Source: a virus. From it: DNA of 20,197 nt. Shown here piece after piece: positions 13,682 through 20,197 of this stretch; positions within the stretch are counted from its first letter, which is position 1; every line of letters begins with the position of its first letter. The translations under genes were made by a program, and so were the position numbers. The stretch lies in IMG/VR virus record IMGVR_UViG_3300025128_000460, positions 1 through 20,197 of that record; one strand, given 5' to 3'. The notes below the pieces were generated by a model. That model worked only from the letters and a program-made list of their open reading frames with translations. It ran no database searches and was not told where the DNA came from.

Positions 13682-13689
13682 GGCATAAT

Positions 13690-14391
13690 GTGGCAGATGT
13701 CAAAGTTGCATTTGATGGATGGAATTCGTCCTCTCACGGATGGGGCGATGGAACGTGGGGCAATGGGTCTGCATTCCCGGCTAGTACAACGTCTGTCGGC
13801 TCTGTCTCGGTCAGCGCGGATGCAAATGTTACGCTTACTGGCAACTCGGCAACAGTCTCTGTCGGCTCAGTATCTGTATCCGCTGATGCGAATGTCTCTC
13901 CTTCTGGTAATTCTGTTACTGGGAGCGTTGGTTCGGTTAGTGTCTCGGGTACGGCAAATGTATCACCAAGCGGAAACGCGGCTACAGCATCCGTTGGATC
14001 GGTTTCGGTATCGGCTGATGCAAATGTATCGCCAAGTGGTAATGCGGGTACAGTTGGGCTGGGATCGGTTACAGTTACAGGGACAGCGACAGTATCCCCT
14101 ACAGGAAGTTCTGCAACGGTATCTGTTGGCAGCGTTACGGCGATTACAAGCAATACGATTCCTGTCACCAGTACAGAGCTTGTCGCGTCTACAGCAAGCG
14201 TTAGTATCAACGGTGACTCGATTGTTGGAGTCACAGGAAATTCGGTCACGGTTTCAACAACAACTCCCCTTGTCTGGAGCTTGGTTGACGACAGTCAAAC
14301 AGCAAGCTGGTCAGGGGTTAGCACAAGTCAAACACCAAACTGGACGGCTATTGACGACAGTCAAACGCCTAATTGGAAAGAGGTAGCATAA
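13690..14391 (+). CDS. Tandem-repeat structural protein (22-aa and 11-aa repeats)
   Basis: The 233-aa product has a Trp/Gly-rich start (DGWNSSSHGWGDGTWGNG), five 22-residue units beginning VGSV(S/T)V, a degenerate sixth unit, and three 11-residue W...DSQTPN units at the end. The GTG start at 13690 overlaps an ATG at 13688 that opens a different, equally long frame. The GTG frame is the real one because repeat copies differ mostly at its third codon positions while the amino acids stay fixed. AAGG at 13680-13683 is the ribosome site. Probably a beta-rich tail or fibre-linking protein. Function is inferred only from position before the fibre. Confidence 0.7.
   Translation: MADVKVAFDGWNSSSHGWGDGTWGNGSAFPASTTSVGSVSVSADANVTLTGNSATVSVGSVSVSADANVSPSGNSVTGSVGSVSVSGTANVSPSGNAATASVGSVSVSADANVSPSGNAGTVGLGSVTVTGTATVSPTGSSATVSVGSVTAITSNTIPVTSTELVASTASVSINGDSIVGVTGNSVTVSTTTPLVWSLVDDSQTASWSGVSTSQTPNWTAIDDSQTPNWKEVA
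13795..14124 (+). repeat. Five 66-bp in-frame tandem repeats
   Basis: Units start at 13795, 13861, 13927, 13993 and 14059, each encoding 22 residues of the form VGSVSVSADANVSPSGNxxT. A sixth, degenerate copy begins at 14125. The fifth unit is more diverged (LGSVTVTGTATV). Repeat length is exact, so the array arose by tandem duplication. Its differences are largely synonymous. Confidence 0.85.
14275..14373 (+). repeat. Three 33-bp tandem repeats encoding a Trp motif
   Basis: Units at 14275, 14308 and 14341 each encode 11 residues beginning with Trp and containing SQT, ending before a fourth Trp at 14374. Each unit contains AGTCAAAC. Regular Trp spacing suggests a small beta-solenoid or interaction tail at the C-terminus of the 13690 protein. 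Confidence 0.8.
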
Positions 14392-17300
14392 ATGGCAACT
14401 TACGTTAATGACCTAAGATTAAAGGAAATCGCCACTGGCGATGAATCAGGAACTTGGGGAACAAGTACAAATACAAATTTGGAGCTAATCGCTGAAAAGT
14501 TTGGGGCAGCAAGCGAGGCTCTTTCGGACGCTAGTACCGCCACCATTACGATGCAGGATGGAACTAGTGATGCATTTCGCTCGATGGCTCTTACCCTTAC
14601 AGGATCTCTCTCACAGGCTTGTACGGTCACGTTAGCTCCAAATACTCTTTCTAACGTCTGGGTAGTTCAGAACTCCGCTGGCGATACAGTCACATTAACC
14701 GCAGGAACAGGCGCAAATGTGGTCATACCAAATGGCGGTATCCGTATGGTCGCTACTGACGGTGGCGGTTCTGGTGCAGCGGTTACAGATGTACTCGATG
14801 TACTAGGCGGTACAGGCAACGTAGGACTTGGTTCAGGTGCGTTTGGCACAGGGCTGACTACAGGCACAGATAACGTAGCTATCGGTGAGGCTGCGGGTGA
14901 TGCGCTTACAAGCGGTTCTGACAACACGTTTGTTGGCGACAACGCTGGTGGGGCAACAACCACAGGAGCCTTTAACACTGCTATTGGAGCAAACGCATTA
15001 GATGCGAATACTACGGCTTCTAGTAATACCGCAATGGGAATGAACTCGTTAAGCTCAAACACGACTGGTGCAAGCAACACGGGAATTGGCGTAAATGCAT
15101 TGTTTACTAATACTACAGGGACTCAAAGTGTTGCGATTGGAGAGCAGGCTTTATACCTGAATAACGGTGCAAGCAACACAGCGGTTGGATATGACGCATT
15201 ACGCGCTAATAGTACCGGCACAGGCAACGTAGCGGTTGGACATAATGCTTTAGATGCAAACACTACTGCAAATTACAACGTAGGTATTGGTATTAGTGCA
15301 GGGACTTCTATTACAACGGGTAGTGAGAATATATTAGTAGGAGGCTTTGCAGGCGATGCGATTACAACGGGAGCGGAAAATACGGCAGTTGGTTCTGTTG
15401 CTCTTTCAGCTAACACCACCGCTACCGGCAACACAGCGATTGGATATGCTGCTCTTACGGCCAACACCACAGGTGCAAACAATGCCGCAGTTGGTAAGAA
15501 TGCACTAGATGCTAATACCACTGGTGCAGACAACGTGGCGGTTGGATATGATGCGCTAGGAGCTAATCAGACAGGTGGACAAAACACTGTAGTAGGGGTT
15601 GCTGCACAAGATGCAGCTACGGCAAACGATTATGTTACGGCTATAGGTTACGCAGCGTTAAGTAACAGCACGGCTAGTTATAACACCGCTTTAGGAAGGT
15701 ATGCGGGGTTGGCGAACACCACTGGGACTAATGCTGTATATCTCGGATATAACGCTGGTAAGGCAGTCACTACTGGTAATGGCAACACTGTTGTTGGAAC
15801 AGAAGCATTACAGGCAGTCACTACTGGACAGTACAACGTAGCTATGGGTAATGCAGCACTGTACTCTAATACTGCGACAGGAAATGTTGGCATAGGTCAT
15901 GTTGCACTTTATGCCAACACCACGGGTACGGGCCATGTTGCCGTTGGCTATGCCGCATTAGACGCGAACACCACGGGCAATAACAGTACAGCTATTGGCT
16001 ATAACGCATTAACGGCTGCTACGACAGGAAATCAAAATACGGCTATAGGTACTCAAGCACTACTCGCGATGACTACTGCTAGTGACAACACCGCAGTTGG
16101 GATGAATGCTGGTTTAGCTATAACGACAGGCCCGCAAAACACAGCTATGGGTTCTTCTGCTTTATCTCATGTAACAACAAGTTCAAGAAACGTAGCAATC
16201 GGATATCACGCTTTAGAAGAATGCACAAACGATGAAAACACCGCAGTTGGTACACAGGCTCTGCAAGATAACACCACTGGGTATTACAATATTGGGTTGG
16301 GTTATTTGGCAGGAGGTGCAATAACCACAGGAAATTCTAATGTCGCAATCGGGTCGTTTGCATTAGATGCAGCGACCACCGCCTCAAACAACGTGGCAGT
16401 GGGAACTTCAGCTTTAGGAGCCAACACCAGTGGGGCGCAAAATAATGCGCTAGGTGGCGGTGCGCTTGCAGCAAACACTACAGGGGCTAACAATCTTGCT
16501 ATCGGATATAGCACACTTAATGACAATACAACAGGTGGCCGAAATGTCGCTGTTGGAAACTATGCTTTTGACACCCAAGTAGGTAGTGGTAGCTATAACG
16601 TAGGCCTTGGTTATGCGGTAGGCGATGCGGTGTCTACGGCGCAATACTGCACATTTATTGGTGATGTGGTAGGTGACGCGGTTACTACTGGATCCGGTAA
16701 TACAGGGGTTGGTGGTGCTGCTATGAGTGCGGTAAGTACAGGTAGTTATAACACCGCATTGGGCTATGGTAGTTTTTCATCAGCAGTAACAGCTTCAAAT
16801 AACATTACTGTTGGAGCTTTTTGTGGAGATCTTATTACCACTGGAGCAAACAATGTCCTTGTAGGGTTTGATGCAGGTTCTTACAGCGTTAATTTAACAA
16901 CGGGTCTTTACAATGTAATAGTGGGTAATTACTCCAGAGTAAGCACTGACGCTGGAGAATCCCAAATTGCTATTGGGTATAACGTGCAGTGTACAGGCAA
17001 TAGTAACTTTACATTTGGAGGTGGCACAAATGACAGCAACATCGCTTTTGGTGCAACTTCAATAACAGCCCCTTCAGATATTCGCCTTAAAGAAGATATT
17101 CAGGATGAAAAAGTAGGTCTTGAGTTTATAAACGGACTACGCCCTGTTACCTATCTTTGGAAAAAAGAAAAAGACATTCCTGAAGACATGGAAACTCATA
17201 AGCCTGACTCTGAAGAGCGGGTAATGAATGGCAAATATAATCATGGATTTGTTGCTCAAGAAGTTAAAGAGCTGATTGATAAAACGTCTGACCTGAAGGA

Positions 17301-17451
17301 AGGTTTTGATATGTGGTCTGAGTCTGGTGAAGATAAAAGGCAACGAATTGGTGAGGGTGCTTTAATGCCGATAATGGTAAAAGCCGTACAGCAGTTATCT
17401 GAAAAGGTAGATGAGTTAACTGAAAAACTTAACAACTGTAATTGCGAATAG
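14392..17451 (+). CDS. Tail fibre with YadA-like repeats and S74 chaperone domain
   Basis: This 1019-aa receptor-binding fibre has three parts. The N-terminal anchor (about 1-138, ATYVNDLRLKEIATGDESGTW) should bind the tail. Residues 143-887 are about 45 repeats averaging 16-17 residues of the form NTA(V/I)GYxALxANTTG, resembling the left-handed beta-roll of YadA heads. Residues 895-1019 are a Peptidase_S74 intramolecular chaperone: SDIRLKEDI at 895 with the Ser895-Lys900 spacing of the catalytic dyad, GLEFINGLRPVTYLWK, HGFVAQEVKELI and a final coiled coil. This domain trimerises the fibre and then cuts itself off. It follows the repeat protein with no gap and is the largest gene in the window. 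Confidence 0.9.
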   Translation: MATYVNDLRLKEIATGDESGTWGTSTNTNLELIAEKFGAASEALSDASTATITMQDGTSDAFRSMALTLTGSLSQACTVTLAPNTLSNVWVVQNSAGDTVTLTAGTGANVVIPNGGIRMVATDGGGSGAAVTDVLDVLGGTGNVGLGSGAFGTGLTTGTDNVAIGEAAGDALTSGSDNTFVGDNAGGATTTGAFNTAIGANALDANTTASSNTAMGMNSLSSNTTGASNTGIGVNALFTNTTGTQSVAIGEQALYLNNGASNTAVGYDALRANSTGTGNVAVGHNALDANTTANYNVGIGISAGTSITTGSENILVGGFAGDAITTGAENTAVGSVALSANTTATGNTAIGYAALTANTTGANNAAVGKNALDANTTGADNVAVGYDALGANQTGGQNTVVGVAAQDAATANDYVTAIGYAALSNSTASYNTALGRYAGLANTTGTNAVYLGYNAGKAVTTGNGNTVVGTEALQAVTTGQYNVAMGNAALYSNTATGNVGIGHVALYANTTGTGHVAVGYAALDANTTGNNSTAIGYNALTAATTGNQNTAIGTQALLAMTTASDNTAVGMNAGLAITTGPQNTAMGSSALSHVTTSSRNVAIGYHALEECTNDENTAVGTQALQDNTTGYYNIGLGYLAGGAITTGNSNVAIGSFALDAATTASNNVAVGTSALGANTSGAQNNALGGGALAANTTGANNLAIGYSTLNDNTTGGRNVAVGNYAFDTQVGSGSYNVGLGYAVGDAVSTAQYCTFIGDVVGDAVTTGSGNTGVGGAAMSAVSTGSYNTALGYGSFSSAVTASNNITVGAFCGDLITTGANNVLVGFDAGSYSVNLTTGLYNVIVGNYSRVSTDAGESQIAIGYNVQCTGNSNFTFGGGTNDSNIAFGATSITAPSDIRLKEDIQDEKVGLEFINGLRPVTYLWKKEKDIPEDMETHKPDSEERVMNGKYNHGFVAQEVKELIDKTSDLKEGFDMWSESGEDKRQRIGEGALMPIMVKAVQQLSEKVDELTEKLNNCNCE
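14818..17052 (+). repeat. About 45 degenerate repeats in the fibre gene
   Basis: I counted 45 occurrences of an N-x-(A/G)-(V/I/L/M)-G core between residues 143 and 887, spaced about 16 residues apart (about 48 bp). Copies diverge mostly in exposed positions (Y, H, Q, E, S after the Gly), and the ANTTG turn is often repeated. This creates long open frames on the other strand with no coding meaning. Confidence 0.85.
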
Positions 17452-17463
17452 GAGACAAAAGCA

Positions 17464-17814
17464 ATGGCAATAAAGAAAACTTTAACTTCCGCAGTTCCTT
17501 ATTCTGAGGATGGAAAGGTAACACGATGGGAGTTTGAAATGCAGTACGAGCAAGGTACTGAAGGCAAAGCTGATTATTATACAAATACTAAAAGAGCTAT
17601 TGTTCATGCTGTTGAAGTAAAATATCTTCCTGATGGAGATGAAACAATTAATAATTTTACTCCTAAAGCAGCCGCTGATTGGACTAAGAAAGAACTTGAA
17701 GATCTTTGCCCAATAGCGCATTGGGATGTCATATTTGCTAGTCAATACGATTCTGTGATTACTAACCCGCCTAAAGACCCTGTGCGTGATGACAGCTACG
17801 CTATCCCTAGTTAA
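17464..17814 (+). CDS. Unknown protein after the fibre
   Basis: The ATG follows AGGAG at 17450-17454. The 116-aa product has beta strands in the first half (KVTRWEFEMQYEQG, IVHAVEVKYLPDGDE), a helix (AAADWTKKELEDLCPI) and the end HWDVIFASQYDSVITNPPKD. It has no membrane segment or signal peptide. Its stop shares a base with the oxygenase start. Small genes directly after fibres often encode fibre-assembly or attachment proteins, so that is the leading guess. I do not recognise the family with certainty. Confidence 0.7.
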   Translation: MAIKKTLTSAVPYSEDGKVTRWEFEMQYEQGTEGKADYYTNTKRAIVHAVEVKYLPDGDETINNFTPKAAADWTKKELEDLCPIAHWDVIFASQYDSVITNPPKDPVRDDSYAIPS

Positions 17815-18518
17815 TGGAACCGCAACCTTATAATTTTCATACGCTTCCAGCAGTCTTTATGCTAGAGACTCAGCTGCCTGAGAACATGGTGGGTGATCTG
17901 AATACTTATCTCGATAAGCTGATGGTTGCCGAAGAGCGTAAGAGTCATGCGGGTACGTTAGTAGGTCAGATAGGCCACGGACAGCAGCTTACGATGGATC
18001 ATCTTTGTGAAGAAATGAAAGACTTCAACATAATGATTCAAGGGTTGGCGATGGACTATGTAAAGCAGTTCTGTGCTGCATCTGGCAATCCCTTAGAAGG
18101 TAATCGGGAGGTAATGACTGATGAGCTTTGGAGTGTTCATTCTTATATGGGCGACTACAATCCTATACACGATCATGGTACTAAAACGATTATGGGAGTC
18201 TCCTGCACCACATGGACAAAAGTACCGCAACAAATCCTAGATCAGCCTACAGCGGGAAGTCCTGAATACAGCCTGTATAATTCCAGTGGTAATGCGGATG
18301 GTTGCCTTGCTTTTAGCTATGGTCGAAACAGTTTATTAGATGTGGAACGGTTAGCGCCCCCGCAGAGCTTTATTGTCAAGCCAGAGGTAGGAAAGCTATT
18401 AATGTTTCCTAGTTGGTTAACACATATGGTTTACCCTTTTGAGGGTGATGGAGAACGGCGCACAGTCGCTGCAAATTTAAATGTATGGAAGGTAAAGGAA
18501 GATGGAACAAGACACTAA
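17814..18518 (+). CDS. 2-oxoglutarate/Fe(II)-dependent oxygenase
   Basis: This family uses Fe(II), 2-oxoglutarate and O2 to hydroxylate proteins or small molecules. The 234-aa product matches the 2OG-FeII_Oxy_5 type. It has the motif NPIHDHG (residues 116-122, candidate iron ligands H119 and H121), a distal His at 204 in SWLTHMVYPFEGDGERRTVA, and Arg215/216 placed to bind the 2-oxoglutarate carboxylate. The core strand VHSYMGDYNP precedes the motif as expected. It lies directly after the fibre and its small neighbour. The substrate is unknown; a virion protein or a host target are both possible. The family call is good, the substrate call is not. Confidence 0.8.
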   Translation: MEPQPYNFHTLPAVFMLETQLPENMVGDLNTYLDKLMVAEERKSHAGTLVGQIGHGQQLTMDHLCEEMKDFNIMIQGLAMDYVKQFCAASGNPLEGNREVMTDELWSVHSYMGDYNPIHDHGTKTIMGVSCTTWTKVPQQILDQPTAGSPEYSLYNSSGNADGCLAFSYGRNSLLDVERLAPPQSFIVKPEVGKLLMFPSWLTHMVYPFEGDGERRTVAANLNVWKVKEDGTRH

Positions 18519-18732
18519 AGAAGACACAGTTACAGTTACGGCCCCAGAAGAAGAGGTTGTTCAGCTTCCCCCTAATCCTGAGATGTTAACTGCTCGTATG
18601 GAGGAGCTTAGAGAAGAGATTGGTCAGATCACCAATGTAATCAATGCAAACCAAAAGCAGCTTGATACTTATGTAGCGGCATTTAATTGGTATTCACAGC
18701 AGCTAGAAGCAGCCAATGCGGAGCAACAGTAA
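18502..18732 (+). CDS. Small acidic coiled-coil protein
   Basis: This 76-aa protein is acidic at its N-terminus (TKEDTVTVTAPEEEVVQLPP), then forms a helix with heptad-like pattern (MLTARMEELREEIGQITNVI, NANQKQLDTYVAAFNWYSQQL). The start at 18502 lies 17 bases inside the end of the oxygenase gene, and the stop shares a base with the next ATG. There is no membrane segment. It opens the small-gene cluster. A self-associating adaptor is plausible, but the function is unknown. Confidence 0.65.
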   Translation: MEQDTKEDTVTVTAPEEEVVQLPPNPEMLTARMEELREEIGQITNVINANQKQLDTYVAAFNWYSQQLEAANAEQQ

Positions 18733-18938
18733 TGGACTTTATCGCTGATATCTTAATCTATGCGAGCCTTTTTGTGACAGTGAGCAGTGCGATATGTGCA
18801 GTTACGCCTACCCCTAAAGACAATGAGTTTATGGGTAAGTACATCTATCCCATCCTTGAAACTATTGCTTTAAACATTGGCAAAGCTAAGGAAGGCTCGA
18901 CTGTTACTCCAATTAAGTTCGTGAAAAGATCAGACTAA
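18732..18938 (+). CDS. Small single-membrane-segment protein, holin-like candidate
   Basis: ATG 18732 is preferred because it overlaps the preceding stop by one base; the open frame continues further upstream, inside the previous gene. The 68-aa product has one hydrophobic segment (residues 5-24, ADILIYASLFVTVSSAICAV), then TPTPKDNEFMGKYIYPILE and a basic end. A conserved-looking TPTPKD block after the membrane segment is familiar from small phage membrane proteins. It lies in a run of tiny membrane genes, where holins and antiholins are usually found. Holin function is inference. Confidence 0.6.
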   Translation: MDFIADILIYASLFVTVSSAICAVTPTPKDNEFMGKYIYPILETIALNIGKAKEGSTVTPIKFVKRSD

Positions 18939-19159
18939 TGCCAGCAAAAAAGGCTACTGCTAAAAACAAAACTGCTACTCCTAAATCGCAGGATGCTTTG
19001 TCTGAAATAAAGACGCATCAAAGAGAATGCGCCATTCGATATGAGTATATTGAGAAGCGTCTTGATGAAGGCTCAGAAAAGTTTAAGCGTTTAGAGATGC
19101 TTATATGGGGAGTATACCCATTCATAGCTGCTAGCATTTTTGCCACCAAATTCCTATGA
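18938..19159 (+). CDS. C-tail membrane protein, XhlA-like candidate
   Basis: This 73-aa protein has a basic disordered start (AKKATAKNKTATPKSQ), a charged amphipathic helix (ECAIRYEYIEKRLDEGSEKF) and one membrane segment at the C-terminus (residues about 53-72, MLIWGVYPFIAASIFATKFL). This order of helix then C-terminal anchor resembles XhlA-type haemolysin/holin partners. The start shares one base with the previous stop. A lysis-related role is inferred from topology and neighbours; the family match is not confirmed. Confidence 0.6.
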   Translation: MPAKKATAKNKTATPKSQDALSEIKTHQRECAIRYEYIEKRLDEGSEKFKRLEMLIWGVYPFIAASIFATKFL

Positions 19160-19162
19160 CCG

Positions 19163-19390
19163 ATGAAAGGTGCAATTCTAGCATTTATGCTAATAACAGT
19201 CGTAGAAGGCAATGTTGTTGATGGCGCAGAGAGTATGTTGTTTAAAGACATTCATCGTTGCCAGCAGTTTGCTTACTGGATTGAGCATAATTGTAGAGAC
19301 GCTATTTGCAGAGGCGGAGTTAAGCAGCAAAAGATAACGGCTTATTGCAAGCCGGTTATGGCTGGAGCAAATCAAAAGTTTTGGGATTAG
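19163..19390 (+). CDS. Small secreted or membrane-anchored four-cysteine protein
   Basis: The 75-aa product has an N-terminal hydrophobic segment (MKGAILAFMLITVVEG, about residues 3-14) that could be an uncleaved anchor or signal peptide, with no lipobox. Four cysteines (33, 44, 49, 62) lie in the outer part and could form two disulfides in the periplasm. ATG 19163 is the first start after the previous gene. It sits in the candidate lysis cassette, so a spanin-like role can be considered, but no clear Rz or Rz1 pattern is visible. The function is unknown. Confidence 0.55.
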   Translation: MKGAILAFMLITVVEGNVVDGAESMLFKDIHRCQQFAYWIEHNCRDAICRGGVKQQKITAYCKPVMAGANQKFWD

Positions 19391-19392
19391 TG

Positions 19393-19497
19393 ATGAGTGT
19401 ATACAACGCTTTGTTTTATATAATGGAGGAGAAACGCTTTGTCCGATGGGATGAGTATATTAAATACTATCGGAATCAAGGTGTTGAAGATAAGTGA
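19393..19497 (+). CDS. 34-aa microprotein
   Basis: The open frame ATG 19393 to TGA 19495-19497 encodes 34 residues with VYNALFYIMEEKRFVRWDEY as its core and a basic-acidic end. It starts just after the previous stop, and its TGA overlaps the GTG start of the next gene (GTGA), the same coupling used elsewhere here. It has no membrane segment. It is small enough to be chance, but the tight fit between two genes makes a real gene more likely. Confidence 0.45.
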   Translation: MSVYNALFYIMEEKRFVRWDEYIKYYRNQGVEDK

Positions 19498-19817
19498 GTT
19501 CAAAAAAGCTACAACAAGACTCTGTATGGGCTAAGTACGATATAGATAATGATGGAACCGTTAGCGATGAAGAGTTAGAACGGGCTACTCAAATGATCGA
19601 ATTAGACCTTAGAGAAGAAAAGCAAGACTCCCAGCGCAGGATTGCTTGGGTAGCTATGGCTTCTATGGTTGCGTATTCATTGTTGCCTTTAATGCCGTTT
19701 GTCCCAGAAGACAGGCTTTCAACCCTTTCATCATTAAGTGATATGTTATTTCTTAGCCAAGCTTCAATTATAGGTCTTTATTTCGGCGCTACCGCCTATA
19801 TGTCTCGCAAACCATAG
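19494..19817 (+). CDS. EF-hand protein with two membrane segments
   Basis: The start is GTG at 19494, overlapping the 34-aa frame. Residues 16-27 (DIDNDGTVSDEE) form a canonical EF-hand calcium loop: Asp at positions 1, 3 and 5, Gly at 6, Ser at 9, Glu at 12. A charged helix follows (ELDLREEKQDSQRR), then two membrane segments at about 50-68 and 83-103, with a short proline-rich turn between. With 107 residues and an EF-hand outside the membrane, the topology suits a holin or other small membrane protein whose assembly might respond to calcium. The calcium-binding loop is seen; the function is inferred. Confidence 0.75.
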   Translation: MSSKKLQQDSVWAKYDIDNDGTVSDEELERATQMIELDLREEKQDSQRRIAWVAMASMVAYSLLPLMPFVPEDRLSTLSSLSDMLFLSQASIIGLYFGATAYMSRKP

Positions 19818-19830
19818 CCGGAGGTGAGCC

Positions 19831-20197
19831 ATGATTATCGAAAGCGTAGCTGCGGCTGCGGCAATCCTGAACCAAATCGGCAAATTAATAGAGACTGCCA
19901 GTGAAGCTCAAGGCGGGGCGCAGCGAGTCATGTCTGCCATCCTTGATTTTGGTCAGGGTTTAGATGATCTTGAGAAAAACGAAAGAGAAAAGTTTGTTAA
20001 TGTCAGCCATAGTGATCTGCTCAAAATTTCTATGATGCGTAGGCAACAGGAAAGGTACGAGAAGGATCTCGAGAATATGCTCATAGTGGTCGATCCGGCT
20101 CTTCACACAACCTATGTGAAAGCCAAGGCTGACCAAGCAGCAAAACGCAAGCGACACATGGAGATGCTGGCCCAGCAGAAAAAACAACGGGCAGAGT
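19831..20197 (+). CDS. Helical protein of unknown function, cut by the window edge
   Basis: ATG 19831 has GGAGGTG (19820-19826) just upstream. At least 122 residues are visible with no stop before the end of the window. The protein is alanine- and charge-rich and almost all helical: ESVAAAAAILNQIGKLIET, SAILDFGQGLDDLEKNE, DLLKISMMRRQQERYEK and TTYVKAKADQAAKRKRHMEM. I recall similar helical proteins in phages without a known role. An internal virion or ejection protein is one possibility, given the place after the lysis-like cluster, but this cannot be tested without the remainder. Confidence 0.65.
   Translation, partial: MIIESVAAAAAILNQIGKLIETASEAQGGAQRVMSAILDFGQGLDDLEKNEREKFVNVSHSDLLKISMMRRQQERYEKDLENMLIVVDPALHTTYVKAKADQAAKRKRHMEMLAQQKKQRAE

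Follow-up and report, generated by a model that had tools for sequence, protein, structure and literature searches.

A protein of 107 residues, encoded at positions 19,494–19,817 (+ strand) of the virus record IMGVR_UViG_3300025128_000460, carries a calmodulin-type EF-hand loop ahead of two transmembrane (TM) segments, and its membership in a phage lysis cassette is established by comparative evidence. The window, that is the whole stretch of DNA analyzed, comprises 20,197 nucleotides. The EF protein is probably a holin or the controller of one. Its size, its two TM segments, its position and the rarity of any other recognized holin nearby make a holin or pore component the likely identity. 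We assign a probability of about one half to the fuller reading, in which it is a lysis-cassette membrane protein, most likely a holin or that member of a holin pair which forms the pore, with a cytoplasmic EF-hand that takes part in triggering. The novelty lies in the presence of a calmodulin-type loop in a previously unannotated phage lysis membrane protein, the holin status of which is putative.

The open reading frame begins with GTG, and most relatives begin with ATG. Residues 16–27 (DIDNDGTVSDEE; 19,539–19,574, +) form the loop, D16-I-D18-N-D20-G21-T-V23-S-D-E-E27, in agreement with the canonical 12-residue pattern D-x-D/N/S-x-D/N/S-G-x-I/L/V-x-x-x-E. The initial annotation described this loop as perfect, and it is indeed correct at positions 1, 3, 5, 6, 8 and 12. 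The same annotation took the rest of the protein to be two membrane segments. These are present on the + strand as TM1, at about residues 50–70 (19,641–19,703; hydropathy and structure model), and TM2, at about residues 84–104 (19,743–19,805; alignment and structure model), but a charged exit helix of 22 residues, 28–49 in the structure model (19,575–19,640, +), separates the loop from the membrane and runs on into TM1. By hydropathy TM1 is strong; TM2, which is rich in small residues (GLYFGATAYM), is weakly hydrophobic and is not detected with a Kyte-Doolittle threshold of 1.6.

The AlphaFold2 model has a mean pLDDT of 80, with values of 86–92 over most of two long helices. It contains an entering helix (residues 11–15, low confidence), the loop, an unbroken helix of residues 25–66 made up of the exit helix and TM1, and a helix of residues 72–104, in which TM2 is helical despite its weak hydropathy. 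Helices 11–15 and 25–66 give the helix-loop-helix arrangement of an EF-hand. A Foldseek search of the PDB with this model returned generic helical bundles only, with no match below E = 1. Lysine and arginine are more frequent in the N-terminal flank and C-tail than in the inter-helix turn in all 34 members of a diverse family set; this positive-inside count, a rule of thumb rather than a measurement, predicts an N-in/C-in topology with a cytoplasmic loop. Two TM segments with both ends predicted inside correspond to the topology of class II holins, and the size of the protein, its number of TM segments (one to three are expected) and its charged termini also fit a holin.

The EF protein is a member of a large, widespread family of phage proteins without annotation. 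Relatives in IMG/VR numbered 409 with the window protein as query, 204 with that of CRP-9, 324 with that of DC31 and at least 594 with that of CRP-207, counts that are given per query, as the four sets may overlap. A scan anchored on phiN3 gave only two loci, and a scan of genome contigs gave three from metagenome-assembled genomes (MAGs). In PHROGs the direct family match is phrog_27150, with E = 9.5e-9 for the window protein and matches to 27 of the 34 diverse members. It has no assigned function there, and neither the NCBIfam nor the PHROGs searches gave a function label for the EF family. In the stretches read of the closest terminase relatives, HTVC027P and 023Pt_psg01, there was no EF match and no annotated holin. 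A search for the same fusion in other phages had been proposed with the initial annotation; the 337 loci that were fetched yielded 221 distinct homologues, and 220 of these keep a strict loop, D.[DNS].[DNSTG]G.[ILV]...E, the exception being phage DLP6. The loop core was absent from all seed patterns of the window-protein scan.

Scored as a single sequence, the window protein reaches only 21.2 bits against Pfam EF-hand_1 (E = 1.9e-4), under the curated cut-off of 25.4 bits, as might be seen if an unrelated membrane protein resembled an EF-hand by chance. The family argues otherwise. EF-hand models match 32–33 of the 34 diverse members, and a profile built from the alignment of these 34 (A1) matches calmodulins among PDB sequences at profile positions 9–34 (E = 3e-8 to 4e-7). 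Seven columns of A1 are invariant (D16, D20, G21, E27, Q47, A51 and A54) at a mean column identity of 30%. Four of the seven, D16, D20, G21 and E27, belong to the loop, and the family has no better conserved columns than those of the ligands. The mean entropy of the six key loop columns is 0.23 bits vs. 1.6 for residues 28–107, and in 200,000 permutations random sets of six columns never reached so low a value. Within the window subfamily no nonsynonymous differences were seen at five ligand and glycine positions, although synonymous sites are saturated; this saturation makes pN/pS a rough measure. The low entropy and the absence of such differences indicate, as judged by sequence comparison, strong purifying selection on the loop. 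Chance resemblance, which we consider exceedingly improbable, was rejected on the grounds of family-wide conservation, column entropy and the calmodulin profile match.

It was stated at the outset that homologues with the membrane part but without the loop residues would refute the initial proposal. They exist, in DLP6, Limnohabitans phage DC33 and MW202520, the last two being short, but they are rare; these three homologues indicate that calcium is not universally needed. The DC33 homologue of the membrane part (L492:3490–3690) is a gene missed in the record, flanked by Xhl-like and Rz/endolysin genes. The loop might also be a static site for calcium or magnesium that serves folding or oligomerization of a lysis-cassette membrane protein and not sensing. 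A single unpaired EF-hand is usually a weak binder, the ligands do not vary among marine and freshwater members, and the entering helix is nearly missing in CRP-9-type members, all of which would suit a static site. The exit helix, which in the model passes unbroken into TM1, is, however, a plausible coupling element, and the homologues without a loop show that the membrane part can manage without the site. We regard a purely static role as unlikely.

The initial annotation connected the loop with the high calcium of sea water. The freshwater Limnohabitans phage DC31 and phages of Sinorhizobium, a soil bacterium, retain the loop, which is also predicted to be cytoplasmic, and sensing specific to sea-water calcium was therefore rejected.

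Several small genes lie ahead of the EF gene on the + strand. The first (18,732–18,938) encodes a one-TM protein that matches phrog_9685 and is found in the same cassette in the gene order of relatives. It is followed by a small coiled-coil protein with a C-terminal TM (18,938–19,159), which is XhlA-like by architecture only, with no profile match; its counterparts occur in freshwater cassettes, some in the same sequence cluster. A protein of 75 residues with a signal-like N-terminus (19,163–19,390) is a constant upstream neighbor in the window subfamily, according to neighborhood clusters. On the downstream side is ccTM (19,831–20,196, +), a protein in which a coiled coil is combined with a C-terminal TM; it is incomplete at the window end, and a relative has the complete copy of 154 residues (L002:5332–5796). 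Because the window ends within ccTM, the downstream lysis genes were invisible when a link to lysis was initially proposed. Beyond the window the neighborhood bears this link out with spanins and an endolysin, and the isolates are alike. In L002, with an EF protein 99% identical, the order is the phrog_9685 one-TM protein, the Xhl-like protein, the signal-bearing 75-residue protein, the EF protein and ccTM, followed by a 68-residue protein, an i-spanin-like protein, a lipoprotein that resembles an o-spanin and an endolysin of the lysozyme family (Phage_lysozyme, E = 8e-13). The two spanin clusters have profile support as Rz-like proteins (phrog_739, E = 9e-11, and phrog_812, E = 1.5e-14, respectively).

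Directly upstream of the lysis cassette a 2OG-Fe(II) oxygenase gene (17,814–18,518; Pfam 2OG-FeII_Oxy_5, E = 3e-13) is kept in relatives. The window also encodes a protein of 1019 residues (14,392–17,451) that contains numerous degenerate repeats of the NTAIG type and probably ends, as judged by eye, in a chaperone-like tail-spike domain. A repeat-rich gene occupies 13,690–14,391, where an overlapping frame (13,688–14,386) is open for 232 codons; an open frame is expected from the repeats, and its length is unusual.

The order of the cassette differs among groups. It is EF/ccTM/Rz/Rz1/GH24 in the window group, Xhl-like/ccTM/EF/Rz/M15 endolysin in the freshwater group, and EF/M15 endolysin in the roseophage group. 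Among isolates, the EF gene is followed by an endolysin in CRP-1 and CRP-9, by spanin2 and endolysin in CRP-345, and by an Rz-like gene and an L-Ala-D-Glu peptidase in DC31. A named endolysin cluster lies within four genes of the EF gene in at least 198 of the 337 loci, a lower bound since many contigs are short and some hydrolase clusters were uncounted. The EF gene is thus in a lysis cassette beside endolysin or spanin genes, as expected for a holin, with the exception of the T4-like loci. Across unrelated phages ccTM is a near-constant neighbor, in three sequence-divergent versions (clusters 2, 6 and 24), one of which is phrog_32327.

In order to avoid circularity, the i-spanin was used as query in place of the EF protein. 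This search gave 80 loci, and the EF gene was present in all 47 of those with 1.5 kb or more of upstream sequence. With a freshwater spanin (Rz-A) as anchor, the EF gene was present in 29 of 43 loci; the other 14 carry distant Rz relatives of 35–46% identity. In at least two of these 14 (L475 and L479), ccTM lies near a two-TM protein with no EF-hand, phrog_25359, which suggests that this protein may functionally replace the EF protein there. These gene orders are compatible with a two-TM holin slot that is filled by the EF protein here and differently in other phages.

In T4-like phages, among them HTVC008M, Melnitz, phiN3 and DLP6, the EF gene has gp51 on one side and a large gene on the other, which is tape-measure-like in Melnitz and HTVC008M (L488 and L489). 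It is there among tail-hub genes, with no stand-alone endolysin adjoining, and in DLP6 the neighboring gene carries a GH108 domain. This position counts against a holin and would suit a tail-hub or virion-associated membrane protein, active in assembly or DNA entry and merely linked to peptidoglycan-degrading genes. Given the spanin and endolysin surroundings in other phages and the invariable co-occurrence with the spanin in the i-spanin loci, such a role seems very improbable.

Searches with the window protein gave no match to a holin-family profile, including those of NCBIfam. Among the 34 members, Phage_holin_3_6 gave weak matches to 12 (best E = 2e-4) and the holin family phrog_565 matched two (best E = 0.016). 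The EF protein may instead be a regulator of lysis, either an antiholin or a calcium-dependent accelerator, with the pore formed by ccTM or by a separate two- or three-TM holin. As a near-constant neighbor and itself a membrane protein, ccTM could be the holin. In CRP-810 the EF gene, a three-TM holin gene (phrog_3427, E = 7e-33) and a GH108 endolysin gene are consecutive, a separate holin-family protein with three TMs likewise adjoins the EF gene in L286, and six loci of the DC31-type group have a second two-TM protein directly after the EF gene. Yet L080 has the spanins and endolysin directly after the EF gene and no ccTM, and a three-TM holin like that of CRP-810 is near the EF gene in only one of the 337 loci. 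A regulator is a possibility that we hold at well under even odds, and the assignment as a holin or pore component is preferred.

Among known systems, class II holins of the phage 21 S21 type share with the EF protein two TM segments, a short external turn, a basic C-terminal tail, the predicted N-in/C-in topology and a cassette position ahead of spanins and endolysin. The EF protein differs in its 48-residue N-terminal EF-hand domain, its pore activity is putative, and a sequence match to the named class II families was not found. The freshwater cassettes resemble the PBSX XhlA-XhlB-XlyA operon, in which the order is a small coiled-coil/TM protein, a two-TM protein and an endolysin. In contrast to PBSX, EF cassettes are of Gram-negative type with spanins, an additional ccTM gene and an EF-hand, and there is no detectable sequence relation. 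Calmodulin and other EF-hand proteins share the loop and residues of the flanking helix (E about 3e-8 for the profile), whereas in the EF protein a single EF-hand, with no partner, is joined to a membrane hairpin. The phrog_3427 proteins, GTA-holin-like by resemblance, also lie beside endolysin genes, but they are separate genes of other sequence and another number of membrane segments.

Full-text searches found no EF-hand holin, in accord with the initial statement that no well-studied phage holin of such a design is known. Co-mentions of EF-hand and holin, judged by titles and abstracts, came mostly from endolysin papers. The screen in the TP-84 paper was limited to structural proteins, among which none was found, and term searches of the papers on CRP-1, CRP-9 and DLP6 found no mention of a holin or EF-hand. 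For the T4-like methylophage Melnitz no holin was named, and curli pores were proposed as a holin analogue (PMC9004378).

A trigger mechanism can be proposed for a holin of this kind. Bacterial cytosolic calcium is low, in the sub-micromolar range, so that the loop would be empty or filled with magnesium as the EF protein builds up in the inner membrane before lysis. The first leak would admit calcium, which would bind to the loop and stiffen or reorient the helix joined to TM1. This change would promote all-or-none hole formation and release of the endolysin encoded downstream. Calcium entry could in this way speed or synchronize triggering. We infer calcium as the trigger from its low cytosolic level, its admission by a leaking membrane and the continuous helix between loop and TM1; pore formation and calcium binding by the EF protein are likewise putative. 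More tentative still is the general proposal of a calcium-gated holin, which reads the influx from the first lesions to give synchronized, all-or-none lysis in abundant pelagic, roseobacter and freshwater phages, and which would be the missing holin of HTVC008M and Melnitz.

Little is known of the lysis genes in those phages that are most abundant in the ocean. The EF family provides a testable candidate for Melnitz and HTVC008M, as well as for several roseophages and for freshwater phages, and the timing of phage lysis might, on this view, be set by a second-messenger ion.
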